In this document: piece after piece, positions 12,560 to 38,437 of the stretch
Position numbering within the stretch: the stretch's first letter is position 1
Layout: the number at the start of each line of letters is the position of its first letter
DNA from: Tubulanus polymorphus
Lineage: Eukaryota; Nemertea; Palaeonemertea; Tubulaniformes; Tubulanidae
Direction of reading: 5' to 3'
DNA: 64,000 bases
Assembly (NCBI RefSeq): GCF_964204645.1
Contig: NC_134030.1
Coordinates: 5,330,278 to 5,394,277 of the forward strand
Translations under genes and position numbers: made by a program
The notes under the pieces: model-generated
What the model was told of the DNA's origin: nothing
Seen by the model: only the letters and a program-made list of their open reading frames with translations
Database searches by the model: none

Positions 12560-13265
<706 letters not shown>

Positions 13266-13571
13266 TAATGAATAGATGATATGTACGTGGTACCATTTTC
13301 ATCGAAATTTTCAATAATCATTTTAGCCAGGCAAATCAGGGCCCAGTTTAACGAAAAGGTAACTCAAATTAGTCGTTTAGTTGCTATTTGGGGTAATTTT
13401 ACATCGTCAAGCGATGGCAAAAATTCAAACTTAACCGAATTAAGCTTAAACTTTTCATGGACCTGGACCCTGTTGAATCGAATCCGTTTTACATTCATAC
13501 ATAACCGTAAACTGCGACTGTGACAAAAATATCGTCGAATTGTTTAAAGCTGAAAATAAATCAAGTAGCCT

Positions 13572-13672
13572 ACAGGGTCCAGTTCCACAGTTCTGAGTTA
13601 ACTCATTGAAAATGAACTAACTTTAACTCAGAGTCAACTCTAACTCACAACTGTGGAACTGGGTCCAGGGTA
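13572..13672. repeat. Inverted repeat, MITE-like
   Basis: CCAGTTCCACAGTTCTGAGTTA on one side (about 13579-13600) faces TAACTCACAACTGTGGAACTGG on the other (13641-13662), differing at one base in the arm, with GAGTTAACTC-type sequence inside. Related sequence recurs at 8181-8223, so it belongs to a dispersed family. No transposase is present. Confidence 0.65.
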
Positions 13673-16531: not shown

Positions 16532-19006
16532 ATGTCCCACGCGCATATGAGTTCATATTTTGGGTCAGGATTGCAGCTTCATCAGCGAAACGGAGATGTG
16601 TCACGGCAGGGCTATTTCGGGGACGCTTCGTTGACCCATTCTTACGCGATGCCGGACTCTTGTTTACCTCAGGGCATGAAATTCCCATCGTTCATGTCCA
16701 CGGATCACGCTGGTCTCAACTATGGCGTCATGCAAGGAAGGGACTATAGGCAGCAGTCGTTTCAGGCTAACATTTACGGTCATCAGTTGGACCCGCAGAC
16801 GGACAGTGAAGTTATGAAACTCAGCGAATTGGCCGGACTCGGTCACGAACTTTCCACCCATTCTCAAAACGGTTCGGACGGCCACCACGACCAAGGATTC
16901 ACGGCGAATGGTGCGGCAAATAGCCTCTATCCGTGGATGTCCATAGTTGGTAAGTATCAATTCTTTTAGAAAGTGCTTAACTAAAATGTCATTGTGTAGA
17001 TGTTAATTGAGGCCTGGAAAGCCGCATTTGCGGTTGACGAAAGAGGCCATAAAGTAGTTTGTGGGAAATCCACGTTATAATCAAGTGTTAATCACTCTAT
17101 TACGCGTGAAGATACCGATATATACCTTGTCTAATTGATTGATGACAGTTTTATACACCATGTAACACGAAAAAGTCTTCACATGTCTTTTATTCACAAA
17201 ATACGAATCAATTTATAGAATTTTGATGCTAAAGTTCCCCAGGAGCCCCGTCGACCGGGTGAGAATCGTGATTGCTCGGTTCCTTAGCATTTCAAGATGT
17301 TCTTGTCAATTCATCCCCCCTGTGGGGAGCCTTGAGAACTCACCCACTTATAGGTTATAGGTGAACAAAAATGAATGAGACAAACTTCTTTCTATCAATT
17401 GATCAAAACAATCTAAGTTATTTTCAAAACAATTCAAGTTATTTACCACACAACATATCGATTGGCCAACATTTCAAAATGCTGCGATGTAACGTCGATT
17501 TATTAGCATTTCTTTACGTAGCTATAAACTTTTTCGATAATTGGAACTTTCTATTGGAATGTTGTTTACTTTTCTGATTGCACACTTTACAGATAGATGT
17601 CTCTGTCGTAACCTCGCTCTTACGAAGTCTCAAAAACCGTCTCGCCTTGTTTTATAACCTATACAGTGTTTTTATGGCCACTTTTAATGGTTTCGTCTGA
17701 TGGCCTCGAACATAGGCGCGTACATCCTCAATACACATTAATCCATGGCAGCAGTGTTGAAATTATTACCATTTTACAACCTCGAATCTACTACCCAATA
17801 AAACTATGGTGTCACGCACGAAGTTCAAGGCCAATAATTTGTATATTTAAACTGTCCCTCGATTGGATTATAGAAAAAACATTTCATAGCGCATTTTATT
17901 ATGCATATCAAATTAGCATTTTGATCTGCCGAATTAGGATTATATTGAATCTTTACTGGGAACAGCAATCTACCGAAAAGCACTTCCTCCATCTTTTTCA
18001 CAACCGCCATTCGTATTCGGCGCTTTGAAGTTCTATTGGCTAATGAGCTGCATCATTTGCTGCGGAACTAATGTGCACTCAGTCACGTGGCACATCAGTG
18101 TCGCGACGATTTTCCGTTCGCTGCGCTAAATTCCATTATACCATGTATTCGTGGATTAAAGGGAAACGTACACACCTTAAATCATGGGTACTGTCAGTCT
18201 GGCAGGCGAGCGCGTTGTTATATAGCAAACGGCACCGAGTACAAACCATAAATCAACCAACTCTCGCATTAGATCAGAAAATACACACACATAGGAAAAA
18301 ACTCACGAGTTAGATTAAAAATCATACATTCGACTTCAAAGCGCCGTAGCTTTTGATCTCGCTATAGAGCAATGAATTAAATTAGATAGAACGTTTATCA
18401 TTATCTAATGAAAACACGTAAAATATATCTCCTAATTGTACCTTTGTAGGCGAGTGGGGTACCGCGTACTACGATGATAGTAATCTAGGCCATTTTTGTA
18501 CCTAGGCTTCAGATATTTTTGTATATAAACATATGAATATGCATTTTTCATCGATGTAATTTGATAGCTTTTCGATCAATGAAACATGATAGCATAAACA
18601 GATACGTTCACTCATCCGCTTGCAAGTCCATTCATACATCATTAACTTCATCGTTATCTCTTTTGATTCTTTTCTAGGTCCCAATTCCAACCAGCGGCGA
18701 AAAGGCCGACAGACCTATTCCCGTTACCAGACGCTGGAGCTCGAGAAAGAGTTTAAATTCAATCGATATCTTACGCGGCGACGTCGAGTCGAACTGTCCG
18801 CATTACTATGCCTCACCGAACGCCAAATCAAGATCTGGTTCCAAAATCGGCGAATGAAAGAGAAAAAAGAACTGCAGGCGATTAAAGAGCTGAATAAGCA
18901 ATCGCGCCACGCGGACGTCACCGGCAACTCGCAGATCGCCTCCCCACCGAAAACTCATTCATCGGATTCTTCCTCGTCGTCGCCGCCTTGTAACATTATA
19001 AAGTAA
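16532..19006 (+). CDS. Lox2: Lox2, central-class Hox homeodomain protein (two exons)
   Basis: The coding sequence joins 16532-16949 and 18678-19006 (248 aa). The donor is GTAAGT at 16950, the acceptor ends TTTCTAG at 18677, and the intron is phase 1 within the Gly after YPWMSIV. Residues 6-10 are MSSYF, a usual Hox N-terminus. YPWM is at 133-136, followed by a nine-residue linker and the homeodomain at 146-205. That domain has [25 protein letters not shown]50 and N51. The ending [13 protein letters not shown] resembles the UbdA-like peptide of spiralian Lox2. The tail is Ser-rich and ends CNIIK. An in-frame TAA at 16517-16519 makes the first ATG the longest start; ATG 16547 (MSSYF) is an alternative. 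Known family role: a nuclear DNA-binding regulator of trunk identity working with PBC/Meis proteins. Lying 5' of Lox4 on the same strand supports Lox2. Position 36 is Ala, where central-class proteins often have His. The Lox2 name is inferred from signature residues and order, not from a tree. Confidence 0.9.
16950..18677 (+). other. Lox2 intron (1,728 bp)
   Basis: This is the single coding intron, bounded by GTAAGT and TTTCTAG, and lies between the YPWM and homeobox exons as is usual for Hox genes. It contains TAATTGATTGATGACAG (17132-17148), which reads as a Hox/PBC site TGATTGAT overlapping a Meis site TGACAG. It also holds an inverted CCAAT box near 18033 with GTCACGTG at 18082-18089, and a palindromic POU-type motif ATGAATATGCAT at 18533-18544. 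No other coding exon is convincing inside it. Confidence 0.9.
17132..17148 (+). promoter_or_regulatory. Composite Hox/PBC/Meis-type site in the Lox2 intron
   Basis: TAATTGATTGATGACAG contains a TAAT core, TGATTGAT (PBC-Hox consensus) and TGACAG (Meis/Prep consensus) overlapping in one orientation. In many animals such composites mediate Hox auto-regulation. The assignment rests on motif match only. Confidence 0.4.
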
Positions 19007-26644: not shown

Positions 26645-27669
26645 ATAATGTATTTTGATTCTAGCTTAAATCTAGTAATTTGAAAATGGATTTATCAAAG
26701 TTTAATTTCTATTCCATTCTAGTCCGTATGCTAATCCTCAAAACCTGATTGATTAGGGAATCTTTCTTTTACTGTTTTTTTTTCATTTCGAAGAAAAAAT
26801 TGTGCAAAATCTCTGCGATCTTTTTCGAAGCGACATGAATCATGTTTGCTGTTTTGCTGTAATTTTTTTCAGGTAAAATGTTCATACACGTTTATGTACA
26901 CCAAACAATCCTCGATTCTCCCGCCGTTTTTTAATACGTAGGCAGTAGTTCCTGTAAATCTCTGTGAGGGCGCCACCTCCATATAACGTGCTCACTCTGG
27001 CCGAAAAAAGCGTGTCACGATCATGCAAATCGGACTGAGACGAAAATATTTTATGCTAATGCATTTATTCAATTCAATCTTTGCGTTAAGACAGAGTTCA
27101 AACAAAGTTTATGATTGTAGCATGGTTATTATTTGAAGACGCAATAAAATGGCATAACAAGGACATCGATGTCTGCAGCTATCAAAAAGCTTTTTATCGT
27201 TGGCTACATTTTTTTTTGTTTAAATAGGCAACGCCTTCTTAGCTTACTTCTTTTATCTCTTGATAATCATCTTCAATTATCATGCTTAACTTAGAAACGT
27301 AATTGCTTGAAAAACACAATATTCATTTGTTATAAGGAATGCACAAGTAAGAAAAGTCGTAATCGTGATTTTCGCTATCAGTGCAAGTTTAGCCAATTAT
27401 TTGCTATTCTGCAAAAAATGATATTGATAAACTTAAATTAGCAAAAAGATGCGAATTAAATTATCTTTGTAGATTAATCAGCATTCATTAAATGTATATA
27501 TAAGGAAACAATATATGATTTCAAAGCAGGTTTCGAATTTAGAAAAGTTGCAATATCTCCAATCCGGTCATATGAAAATGTCGATTCGTGTGTTCATACT
27601 TACAATAAGATCTCGTAAAGCGTCAAAGTCTTCATTTCGAAGTCATAGTAGATGGTGTAAGTAGCAAAT

Positions 27670-27742
27670 GTTTCAATGTACACTGTAGAATGGCTTGTGG
27701 ATTTTGACTGCACAAGCTCGGTTCTACAGGGTACGTAGAAAC
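27670..27742 (-). ncRNA. MIR-10-family microRNA hairpin, - strand
   Basis: On the - strand this reads as a near-complete stem-loop. The 5' arm (27733 down to 27711) begins TACCCTGTAGAACCGAGC and ends TTGTG, 23 nt. The 3' arm (27699 down to 27677) begins CACAAGCCATTCTACAGTG. Pairing is GTTTC with GAAAC at the base, GTAC with GTAC, CTGTAGAA with TTCTACAG, and GCTTGTG with CACAAGC, around an 11-nt loop. The only interruptions are small internal loops (TAC/ATT, C/T and CCGA/CA). The start of the 5' arm matches the miR-10 family, including seed ACCCUGU, and AACCG resembles vertebrate miR-10b. The tail differs from the canonical AAUUUGU. It would be transcribed leftwards, toward the 3' side of Lox2, about 7.4 kb from the likely Lox2 end. 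It would act in silencing complexes against mRNAs with ACAGGGU sites. Expression is not shown by sequence. Confidence 0.85.
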
Positions 27743-30260
27743 CCGCTGAGTTCTGACGATCCTCTAACTCCGTTGCGCCGAAAAACTCTTTCAAAAATCC
27801 GGATCCAGAATGATTATTGTAACGAGCGAAATCTACGTACGCACACCTATGTAAGATACTAGAATGGATGCCATCCTCATCTCATGTTGTTACGGACTGT
27901 TAAGAGCTCCGAAAAGCAACAAATTTAAATATGGACGAGCGTTTTTTTTACTATTTTGTAAAACTGATTTAATATCCATTTAAATATCTCTTCTATATAT
28001 ACAACTTGAACAGCTCAGTATGAGCTATTTGTAACGATGATTACAAATGCGGCGGTGACCACTGAAAGTCCAACAACGATGTTCAACACGAGAATGAAAA
28101 TATCAATGAATTCGAGGAATCGACTTCGCGTGACAGTTTCAGACTGTTCCATGTTTGAAAGAAGTTCAATGAATCATCTTATTTGATGTATCTAATTTGT
28201 AAAATTCGAATCCATCACCGGCAAGGTATCCCTTTTTTAGTTCGATCTCTTCAGAAAGAAGCTGCAAAAAGTTCAAAATCACTTGCGGACGAAACGGCAG
28301 TGTACGTCATTACGAAATGTTGTTAACTTGTGATCATCAATCTGGTATAGATAATTTCCAATCAATTTGAATAAATATCCATAGATTTCGTAGTTCAGTG
28401 ACATGGTTCACGTGCATCCGTGGAAATTCCCCAGTCGTCTAGCTGCGCTGGACACGATTTGCAATTTACAATTTGCCTTTGAAAATAATCCTCACGCATT
28501 CGAAATTGTCACAGTTCAACGAAAAGTCAGCGAAAATACTCTGACGGATGAAAATATCCCGACTCTGACCACCGTTTGTGTAAATGAGACTGTGTATGTT
28601 GAATGTATGCGAATATGATGATCGTGTATAGATCGTATAAACCTATACTATTCTCAGACTTGCTATACGTTCGTGCCAGACAAACACTTCTGAACCCGGG
28701 GACGCATTGACACAGGGGTGTATTGATATTTTTATTACAACTTTTTATGATGTAGAAGTTTTATTACAGCAATTCTCACATGGTTTATTTTGTTTTATGA
28801 TACCGCACACCACCGGCCAAAGGAAACCAAGTAATGCATAATCTCGTTAACGACTCCCTTGATCTCCAATGATCTCGACACCGGAGATTATATTGTACTG
28901 CGCTTTCGGTGCCGCCATCGCCAACGCCAAAGTTCAAACGTTCACAGCCGAGTCGTGGCTTTTTTCAAAAATGTAATTTATAGCTGGCTGATAAAAGAAA
29001 TCTGACATTCATATTTTGTTACTTGCGCTTTTGAAATTGATTTTTATGCCGAAGAAACTGTATTTCCCGCAATGATAATCGGTGAAAGATTTACCTCCCA
29101 GTAACGAGATGGTTTGGCAATCGAAAATCGCTAATCAAGGTTCGATTGAAGAAAAACCTGACAGATATTCGAAAATAAATGGGCCTATCGTTGGTGATTT
29201 GTCGCTGTCTCTTCGAGTCAATTCGTAGGATTTCGTAACAGTTTTGTATCGTAGGGAAACGGAATGTGAACGAAACATTATCCATGGTTGAAAAATAAAA
29301 TTGAAGGTTTTGCAACTAACTGTACTGCTAATGTAGATGTATGAGGCAAAATGCTAAATTGTTTTTCCAGAAGCCAACATCATTATGCGTCCAAAAGTCA
29401 GGAACGATTAGTCTCAATGACAAAGACCGCATAAACAATATATAACCATTAAGATATATCTTTGTAGGTTTGCGATCATTTATTGGTCTTTTATGGCTCA
29501 ATTACGTCTATAAATAACATATCCTCGTTCTTCTTCGACCGATTATAGATTGTACATTTCATACCTAGTATATACGCACTCTAAATGATCATTTATCTTT
29601 CATTCGGTGTTCGCTTTTTATCATTAAAGGTGTCGGTAAGAAAACTCACCGGATGGAAAAAATATAACACCACGCCGAAGACAAGGTAAGATGAATTATT
29701 CATCCCAGTCGAAACTGACGTTGAGATTGAAATGAAATTTGTAGACACGTTAAGGTACGTCGGGTAGAAACAAGTTAGCATATCTTTTGAACAAGCTATG
29801 CAGAGCCTCGGATATTTTACATAGACAACTCATATCAATATGACAATATGGCTGCTGTATATTTTATAATTTCTCCATATGGTAGTATTTCTAAAGAACT
29901 CAGATCACGATTGTGACTGTAAAAATACGATATTCTTGAAATTCAATCAGATATTAACAAAAATCTAACGACAGAAACTATGGAAAGTAGAAAAGACAGA
30001 AAGTACACGTTATTTCAAGTGTATTATTTTTATACAAACATATCAAGGTTTTGTAATTTCAATAATTCTAATGAACGCAAAGTCTTTAGACTAACAGAGA
30101 AAAAGACGCACTAAACGACTCACCTAGAAAGGTTTGTGACCCGTGGTTCGACGCTTTTTCAGTCACCTGCGATCTGAAAAAGAGAGCAAGCTCTATTAAA
30201 AACACCCCTTGATTAAAAAATGACGAGACAGTCAACGTTAAGCAGATTTAGACAATTCAA

Positions 30261-30297
30261 AGATGGCTGCGCTGATACTACGGGCGCCACCTCGTGA
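30261..30297. promoter_or_regulatory. YY1-like and CTCF-like motif pair between the two miR-10 hairpins
   Basis: AAGATGGCTGC (about 30260-30270) resembles the YY1/Pho site AANATGGCGNC with one change. GGCGCCACCTCGTGAT (30282-30297) resembles a reverse CTCF core with two changes. It lies roughly midway between the divergent microRNA hairpins, where a boundary or shared promoter would be expected. Confidence 0.3.
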
Positions 30298-31046
30298 TAG
30301 AATTACGAAATTAAATTTGCGCTTTGACATATTTTCCGTATGGCATCAGTACCGTACTGCGAAACCAAGATTATTTTGATCGGAAACGAATCTAATTCAT
30401 GCGCCGATTCGGGCTTTAGCTACTTTTTTGATGTAACTTACGGAACATCTGCACAGCTCATTTTGGGCGATGTCGGAATCGTTTGTTTCGCTAGCGATAA
30501 ATTATGCACCAGATGTAGGAAAGTCGGCGATGCCACTGAGTGCAACCATGATTTATGCGCGGTAACCTTGGTTGCTAGTCGAGACGACGCAGCCACACCC
30601 AAAAGTGACTGGTTCCCGTCTGACCTAGTTACAAAGTCGTGGCCCCTGCTGTTACCGGTGCAAACCCATAAAAATGAACAAGCGTAGTTTTGAATGGCGG
30701 GAGCTTCTTTCTATTCCCGACAAGGAGTTTGTCCCTAACAACGCCGTGGTAACAAACTATTTTCGCCCTAGACAGATTTACGGAACTGTAAAGTTCCATT
30801 AAGAAACATAACGTGCTTGTTATGTACGGTTATCCAATCAGCTTGGGCAATTCGTACGCAATAATGGTACTCACCGAGTGCAAGGCAATAATTATACTTT
30901 ATTCGAGGTGAGTGTGGGTCGATTTAGCGCCAGCTAATTGGTTAGTTCACTCACGTGGCCTCCAAATTTATGTTGACTATGAAGTGATAAAATTTTATGT
31001 TCTTGCCATGTCTACAAAATATGTATTTGCTTTATTCGATTTTTAG

Positions 31047-31187
31047 TCGAGGATTTCGTTAGGATGGGATGGATACTTAAGTTTGCTCCGCTCGGATTCT
31101 GCGGAATAGTCGGAACGTTCGGTAGAAAAGGATTTATTCTCGAACTTTTCTCGGATATGCTGGGTGGGACTACGCATAGTAGAGCGT
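31047..31187 (+). other. Candidate exon upstream of Lox4
   Basis: An acceptor-like TTCGATTTTTAG ends at 31046 and a donor, AGCGT then GTAAGT, starts at 31188. The 141-nt segment is open in one frame (EDFVRMGWILKFAPLG, continuing to THSRA), a mostly hydrophobic peptide I do not recognise. It may be a 5' leader exon of Lox4; splicing to the acceptor at 34474 would place the + strand miR-10 hairpin in the intron. Weak evidence. Confidence 0.2.
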
Positions 31188-32476
31188 GTAAGTACGCCCT
31201 TTTTTCTATTCGTCACTTATTGTGTGTCACGGAATCTGTTTTGCATATAATATTATTGCGTGTAAGTGATGTCTGCGACAGTCAGAACGCTGTTCATTTG
31301 TTTAAAGATTCTTTTGTCTTCACGTCTTAGATTGTCATTTTCATATATGTATGATATCATTAGTTATGCGTATATACATGTATACGGTTACAAAGTCAAA
31401 ACCGGATGTAGGTTAGCCAATACCATCACCATCCCAACATTGACTTGAAATTCGTCAATTCGGTTTGACGGAAATTCCAAATCCTGTCTGAAACCAGCCT
31501 TTCCTTCTGTCCCACGTTATCCGTGGTGCCATCGTAAGGGTCGAAGTATCGTGTAGCGACTTTTTGCCCATTGAATCGCCTATAAAGAGGGTGCTCTAAC
31601 ATCAAAGGGACCGCAACACAATTGTTCAATCGAACATCAAGTGTCTTCGAGATTCGCGTGCCGAACCCAACCGTTTTCGAGTGATTGCGGCCTTGGAGCT
31701 TGTTTGGACATCATGGCGGCAATGTGGTGATAATGGCAATGTGTTGCCAAATGATAACTACATATTTCGAGTGTTTGACAAATTCGTTGTGCCATTTTCT
31801 TTCTTTCCTCGCCATTTGTTACTTTCATAGAACTACTTTCGCCGACTTATTAGTTAACTACTCTGCGCCATTTTACCACGCACTTTTTAACCCGTCGGAT
31901 TTTCGTAAATGGAGGTTTCTTTTATTGCGATTTTCCTCGTTAGGTTGACAATGTCACCAGGATTTTACGTAATACGATCCGAGTTTGCTAAAACGTGCCT
32001 CAGCGCACGTACACAACTTTGCACTCGGTCAACTTTCCAGTGGAATCTAGGTCAGTAAAAAATCATCCATATCGGATGTTTGATTTCGCCATTAATCACT
32101 GACTTTCTGGGTCAACCTTTGATAAGCCAGTTGAAGTAGCCGTTTGAAGTGCGACAAGCCGTAATAATGCAGAACCGATAATTCCAAACCCTTCATTATG
32201 ATCTTACTCCGTCATAATTAATCGTCCACCATTTTCCTTCAGTGGCGCCACTGTACCGTTTGTTTCTGCATGGTCGCAGTTGTCTGAATGCCAGACTTCT
32301 CAAATTGATCGTATACCATAGATTGCATTGCCAATACAGAATTTTTGGAAGTCAACGATTTTTTTTTTCGTACGGTTTGTTTCGTGTTCAGGTTTGGTGT
32401 TATGGAAATTCTAAGTCTAGATTCCGCTCCTTCCTTAGTTTCCTTTTTTAGATAATATCTAATCAAAGGTTCGATA

Positions 32477-32490
32477 CCCCCCCCCCCCCC
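32477..32490. repeat. C14 homopolymer
   Basis: Fourteen C bases followed by ATG and an A run, 210 bp before the + strand miR-10 hairpin. Its length may be misread by sequencing. Confidence 0.9.
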
Positions 32491-32689
32491 ATGAAAAAAA
32501 AACATCATACGAAAATTCCTTGTAAAATCATTTGGACTTATGACTATATTTTGTGAAATATTCTTTATAGTCATTCTCACTTTATAAAATTAATTCAGTT
32601 TGTATTCTAAATCAGAAAGAAATACATTCATTTTCAATAGACTCCTAAAATATTTCGGCAAAAATCTAACGGGAGTCACGATTCTAAAG

Positions 32690-32760
32690 ACTACCTATAC
32701 CCTGTAGAACCGAGCGAGTGCTACATTTGAACACCACTCGTTTCTCAGGGTACATGTATT
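32690..32760 (+). ncRNA. MIR-10-family microRNA hairpin, + strand
   Basis: The 5' arm at 32698-32720 begins TACCCTGTAGAACCGAGC and ends GAGTG. Its first 18 bases are identical to the - strand hairpin at 27.7 kb. The 3' arm at 32735-32752 is CACTCGTTTCTCAGGGTA. TACCCTG pairs with CAGGGTA and CGAGTG with CACTCG, with a weaker middle (GAA against TTT) and a 5-nt bulge in the 5' arm. An alternative fold uses the first CGAG and a bigger loop. The stem is less perfect than its partner, but the seed and core are intact. It lies 1.8 kb upstream of the Lox4 start on the same strand, so it could be processed from a Lox4 leader intron or from its own transcript. The opposite strand would also fold, with a 5' arm starting TACCCTGAGAAACGAG. 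Confidence 0.75.
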
Positions 32761-32769
32761 CTGGTCTAA

Positions 32770-34492: not shown

Positions 34493-38437
<3,945 letters not shown>

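Follow-up and report, generated by a model that had tools for sequence, protein, structure and literature searches.

Mir-10-related hairpins in the Hox cluster of Tubulanus polymorphus and the strand from which they are probably read

The Hox cluster of the nemertean Tubulanus polymorphus contains three hairpins, A, B, and C, that we read, with a probability of roughly 0.6, as intergenic microRNA genes related to mir-10, with their main transcription not on the strand on which they were first noted but on its complement. A and B lie between Lox2 and Lox4 in the 64,000-nucleotide (nt) stretch analyzed here (the window; C6:5330278-5394277, C6 being contig NC_134030.1), and C lies outside it, between Antp and Lox5. 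The evidence for the strand comes from fold energy, and the closest relative of A is not its neighbor B but C, of which it is an inverted twin.

Hairpins A and B

The 18-mer TACCCTGTAGAACCGAGC was found by exact search at 27716-27733 on the minus strand (A) and at 32698-32715 on the plus strand (B), and the tails that follow it, TTGTG and GAGTG, differ between the two, as a first-pass annotation made from the sequence alone had stated. No third site was found within the window even when up to three mismatches were allowed, and 100 shuffled windows gave a mean of 0.02 matches to the 18-mer, with none of them holding two. Each site is part of one arm of a hairpin. When 75-nt regions were folded, A reached -24.1 kcal/mol (z -4.52) on the minus strand and -32.3 kcal/mol (z -5.74) on the plus strand, and B reached -25.6 kcal/mol (z -4.94) on the plus strand and -36.4 kcal/mol (z -6.57) on the minus strand. 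Among the shuffles (200 for each), one folded as well as the plus strand of B and none as well as the other three. The two hairpins that had been predicted are thus borne out by folding well beyond shuffles, and their stem-loop size fits the mir-10 family (RF00104). A scan of 5114 frames of 75 nt (both strands, step 25) found two that reach -32.3 kcal/mol, both of them in a single inverted repeat at 12676. On this grid, the frames covering A and B miss this value, and frames chosen to fit them reach it (A on the plus strand, -32.3 kcal/mol; B on the minus strand, -36.4 kcal/mol), a comparison that flatters A and B. No Rfam family reached its cut-off in the window.

On its best-folding strand, plus, hairpin A with its conserved flanks occupies 27651..27746. 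Its 3p arm would give the product CAAGCTCGGTTCTACAGGGTAC (27713..27734), which contains AAGCTCG, has predicted ends, and has a complement containing the first-noted 18-mer; in the fold this arm pairs with the predicted 5p arm TACACTGTAGAATGGCTTGTG (27679..27699). Hairpin B occupies 32688..32762 and folds best on the minus strand, where its other arm reads TACCCTGAGAAACGAG and contains CCCTGAG, the seed of mir-125/lin-4. Both hairpins are intergenic, A lying 8.6 kb 3' of the Lox2 stop and B ending 1.7 kb 5' of the Lox4 start codon, and the flanking YPWM exons and homeodomains agree with the annotated placement of the pair between these two genes.

Hairpin C, an inverted twin of A

In the 267.8-Mb genome the exact 18-mer has three sites, A, B, and C, which share a 45-kb stretch of the Hox cluster. 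Hairpin C is at C6:5402689-5402788, with its 18-mer at C6:5402702 and an RF00104 match at 5402695. A and C are 45 kb apart, in inverted orientation, and have in common a unit of 96-100 nt (96 nt in A) composed of 36 nt, an unrelated loop (11 vs 15 nt), and 49 nt; the 85 nt outside the loop are identical. The identity reaches beyond the basal stem and stops abruptly at both edges, there is no homology past the shared unit on either side, and a genome search found no copy of the A unit besides C. The flank common to A and C also holds a GTAAGT (27657-27662 of the window, plus strand), just upstream of hairpin A on its best-folding strand, that could act as a splice donor or as a U1 site.

By BLAST, A matches C over about 100 nt and B over only 24 nt (22 identical, in one arm); in the other arm, A and B are equal at 19 of 24 ungapped positions. 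Therefore, we reject the local inverted duplication that had been proposed for A and B. The inverted arrangement of A and B exists as a pattern, but the duplication is that of A with C. The unchanged stem of A and C around a free loop suggests constraint on the sequence, and the abrupt edges together with identity past the stem point to a recent copy or to gene conversion.

Relation to mir-10 and mir-993

RF00104 matched at least six places in the genome (scores were computed for 59 of the 22053 first-look candidates), all on contig C6 and five of them inside the Hox cluster, with 11 matches when both strands are counted. The genome-wide E-value was lowest for B (5.9e-5), followed by C (4.6e-4) and A (0.035). 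On the first-noted and the other strand, respectively, the scores were 23.6 and 27.0 bits for A, 35.8 (plus) and 21.6 (minus) for B, and 33.0 and 27.3 for C. Since all of these miss the cut-off of 47.5 bits, A, B, and C are classed as mir-10-related and not as formal members of RF00104, and in this form the family relation that had been claimed for A and B stands. The model also matched a mir-100-like hairpin (C6:8194961) and a mir-993-like hairpin (C6:5524825, minus strand, between Hox3 and Dfd), both above the cut-off, and canonical mir-10 (C6:5479986, plus strand), which at 43.9 bits is itself below it. The mir-993-like hairpin is named from its sequence and its position. Because canonical mir-10 lies between Dfd and Scr, the Lox2-Lox4 pair is a distinct locus, as had been annotated, and C in the Antp-Lox5 interval stands apart from it as well.

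Among five hairpins compared, A and C score closest to the mir-993-like hairpin of this genome. On the flipped strand, the 3p arm of A and C shares with it AAGCTCG, which is absent from B, and 22 of 24 ungapped aligned positions, in an alignment that also has gaps. They differ in the 5p arm, which has diverged, and in the interval occupied (Hox3-Dfd vs Lox2-Lox4 for A and Antp-Lox5 for C). The mature mir-993 product presumably contains AAGCUCG. hsa-miR-100* is the 3p side of its hairpin. Fly miR-993 has been found to resemble hsa-miR-100* (PMC2486268).

The flipped 18-mer is GCTCGGTTCTACAGGGTA and lies in the 3p arm. In the same arm the mir-993-like hairpin has GAAGCTCGATTCTACAGG, and thus its own complement likewise bears the TGTAGAATCGAGC core. 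If the flip holds, the 18-mer would complement a mir-993-type 3p arm, and its odd, "non-canonical" core AACCGAGC would be explained as an ordinary 3p arm read backwards. In the proposed mechanism, A would be transcribed from the plus strand and B and C from the minus strand, and the 18-mer would be the complement of the 3p arm, which in A and C would read (C)AAGCUCGGUUCUACAGGGUA. Drosha and Dicer would cut the transcript to a duplex of about 22 nt, with the A(+)/C(-) product predicted to start at or near CAAGCUCGG, and the loaded arm would repress mRNAs by its seed.

Strand of transcription

Folding is possible for either strand of a hairpin, but each G-U pair of one strand turns into an A-C mismatch on the other, so the strand that is read is usually the more stable one. 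We used 18 hairpins from the same genome as references (13 mir-2, mir-9, let-7, mir-100, mir-993-like, and mir-10), and the model strand was more stable in all of them, the difference ranging from 2.1 to 24.4 kcal/mol. By contrast, A, B, and C were all more stable opposite to the first-noted strand, by 6.5, 10.3, and 3.2 kcal/mol. The joint fold gave -25.4 kcal/mol and 28 pairs when flipped vs -17.0 kcal/mol and 25 pairs as first noted; with the mir-993-like hairpin included, the values were -21.9 kcal/mol and 25 pairs vs -13.6 kcal/mol and 21 pairs. These folds suggest that the main strand of A, B, and C is probably the flipped one.

Several observations weigh against this assignment. Covariation contributes little to the joint folds (terms +1.34, +0.46, -0.69, and +0.44), and A and C, not being independent, amount to a single observation on the strand. 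The reference strands were set by models that score pairing themselves, and 8 of the 18 references (6 mir-2, let-7, and mir-10) are below their Rfam cut-offs, with 10 above; the two strands of mir-10 are nearly tied, differing by 2.1 kcal/mol in the reference comparison and by 0.3 kcal/mol in another fold. RF00104 favors the first-noted strand for B and C and the opposite strand for A, its cut-off is missed by all three, and at E up to 10 it also matches 5 of 14 control genomes, none above the cut-off. The similarity of the arms is uninformative, since it is about equal in both orientations for A/C against mir-993 (29 same, 27 flipped; B, 20 and 24), and the control comparison of mir-10 with mir-100 scores better flipped (18, 22). 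Arm similarity was abandoned as a guide to orientation because it failed this control of its own. Drosha motifs, checked by eye only, gave no clear answer.

The orientation first annotated thus keeps the RF00104 preference for B and C and has fold energy against it in all three hairpins. Because fold energy favors A on the plus strand and B on the minus strand, facing each other, the view that each hairpin points toward one Hox gene is unsupported.

Alternative explanations

That the first-noted strand is correct after all seems somewhat unlikely. A, B, and C would then be mir-10 paralogs that carry the mir-10 seed ACCCUGU in a 5p product, UACCCUGUAGAACCGAGC, their products would start UACCCUGUAGAACC on A(-), C(+), and B(+), and they would probably correspond to annelid mir-10b or mir-10c. 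The RF00104 preference for B and C is what this strand predicts, and mir-10b of annelids and molluscs and mir-10c of annelids (PMC6160089), like the extra mir-10 copies of Capitella (PMC3394115), have been reported in Hox clusters; however, this is the less stable strand in each of the three hairpins, which was the case for none of the 18 references. It is unlikely, though compatible with the other explanations, that both strands are used as in iab-4/iab-8, where transcripts in different body regions would draw different products from each hairpin. Both strands of A and B beat nearly all shuffles, and antisense transcripts have been described for almost all Hox genes in two nereid annelids (PMC8293171), but good hairpins are near-palindromes that often fold on both strands. 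The freezing of 85 nt in A and C, both arms included, is expected under a two-strand constraint but can also be explained by a recent copy or gene conversion.

A single recent inverted copy of a 100-bp stretch, with the loop replaced later, would also fit with the other explanations and may have left one or both of A and C non-functional. The abrupt edges of identity on both sides, past the basal stem, are in its favor, but recency alone hardly accounts for a loop that changed in sequence and length (11 vs 15 nt) while 85 nt did not, and B is clearly diverged yet retains the same 18-base core; we consider a copy of this kind rather unlikely. Palindromes arising by chance or from transposons, without microRNA function, would agree with the failure of A, B, and C to reach the Rfam cut-off, but canonical mir-10 misses it too (43.9 of 47.5 bits), only one other copy of the A unit was found, and the three exact 18-mers of a 268-Mb genome fall in one 45-kb stretch inside the Hox cluster, which makes this origin highly improbable. 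A search for conservation of the hairpin by a 21-base pattern gave no match in viral or prokaryote contigs. Transcription of A, B, and C opposite to the first-noted strand is the explanation that we prefer.

Comparison with known Hox-cluster microRNAs

Heimberg and McGlinn (PMC3394115) describe additional copies of mir-10 in the Hox cluster of Capitella, together with the protostome mir-993 and the lophotrochozoan mir-1991. A paper on Eisenia lists mir-10, mir-993, mir-10b, mir-1991, and mir-10c as lying in the Hox cluster (PMC6160089), and mir-10, mir-993, and a mir-10-related gene are mentioned for the cluster inferred for lophotrochozoans (PMC3290615, supplementary figure legend). Like A, B, and C, mir-10b of annelids and molluscs and mir-10c of annelids are described as extra mir-10 paralogs in spiralian Hox clusters (PMC6160089), and no inverted twin is described for annelid mir-10b and mir-10c or the Capitella copies in the available parts of PMC6160089 and PMC3394115. 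Extra mir-10 members of Hox clusters are already known, and the inverted twin is the unusual trait here. The letter strings of the hairpins were not found in the main texts of the literature searched, supplements lying outside that search.

Among the 64 of 62578 genome candidates that were scored, the mir-1991 model RF03858 matched B alone, with 24.1 bits against a cut-off of 66 and an E-value of 4.07. The two have TCGTTTC.CAGGGTA in one arm in common, and the model also matches 7 of 14 control genomes. In oyster mir-1991 lies between Post2 and Post1, and this location is conserved in Lottia and Capitella (PMC4138081). B was rejected as a mir-1991 ortholog because of its score and its position between Lox2 and Lox4.

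The iab-4/iab-8 hairpins of arthropods are likewise posterior Hox-cluster hairpins that fold on both strands. However, they are one locus in the abd-A/Abd-B interval with both strands used, whereas A and B are two loci in the Lox2-Lox4 interval, on the other side of Lox2 from Post2, and the comparable position that had been suggested for them is not supported.

Target sites and genomic setting

Neither Lox2 nor Lox4 is followed by the mir-10-type site ACAGGGT within 2.5 kb; the Lox2 stop has one at a distance of 2.7 kb. In the regions downstream of ten Hox genes, which are of unequal length (879-2500 bases) with the ends of the untranslated regions not defined, there are three ACAGGGT sites against 0.47 expected, one after Hox2 and two after Hox1; five other seeds stay close to expectation, with 0 to 2 sites where 0.29 to 1.11 would be expected. 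Lox4 is followed by one CGAGCTT at 2.3 kb and one ACAGTGT at 1.6 kb. Control of the flanking Lox2 and Lox4 genes through a mir-10 seed has no support in these sequences, and the local tie to Hox output that had been envisaged is not supported. The sites at C6:5635934 and 5636199 (Hox1) and 5603540 (Hox2), being above expectation, are possible mir-10 targets.

Lox2 (16532..19006 of the window, plus strand) has a first exon with YPWM from 16532 to about 16960 and a homeodomain exon at about 18675-19006. Lox4 (34493..38437, plus strand) has a first exon with YPWM from 34493 to about 35030 and a homeodomain exon at about 38140-38437. Both were recognized by their YPWM exons and homeodomains, the exon edges are approximate, being taken from open frames, and the names follow homeodomain signatures. 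A homeodomain search found ten Hox-like matches in a row on contig C6, all on the plus strand, whose order, by homeodomain signatures, is presumably Post2, Lox2, Lox4, Antp, Lox5, Scr, Dfd, Hox3, Hox2, and Hox1. The cluster is intact and of the spiralian type, with Post2 on the far side of Lox2 from A and B. Post1 was not recognized among 25 of the 26 homeodomain matches (L028 excluded), nor by motif in C6:5260001-5319898, a scan whose coverage ends before 5319899-5330277.

Two strong inverted repeats in the window, at 12676-12750 and 13580-13660 (the second seen by eye), are probably mobile-element palindromes. A further candidate, at 13467-13580, whose arms hold ACCCTGT and ACAGGGT, was dropped, as it has a long loop, adjoins the inverted repeat seen by eye, and looks like a mobile-element palindrome itself. 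The mir-100-like hairpin has a let-7 match beside it that scores 51.1 bits against a cut-off of 53.5; both fall in C6:8193461-8196533, some 2.6 Mb past Hox1 on the contig that carries the Hox cluster, and no mir-125 match was found in these 3 kb. The genome also has an expanded set of 13 mir-2-family hairpins, 7 of them above the Rfam cut-off, in two clusters and one single (7, 5, and 1) at C2:21716367-21717838, C3:4553143-4554909, and C4:25613847-25613915.

Implications

A bolder and quite doubtful reading is that A and C form a mirrored microRNA pair, in which transcription of the cluster in either direction would always yield one copy per reading sense. If true, the stem would function on both of its strands, with the arms frozen and the loop free, and A and C transcripts from the same strand would be complementary to each other across the stem. 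Such a pair would be a spiralian counterpart of iab-4/iab-8 achieved by duplication and not by two transcripts over one hairpin.

In near-palindromic hairpins such as these, a family name taken from the wrong strand would misassign both the mature sequence and the targets. MicroRNAs occupy several positions in the Hox clusters of different animals. With five mir-10-related hairpins spread over four intervals of an intact cluster, and one pair of inverted twins among them, the present case offers a natural test of whether position or strand matters.

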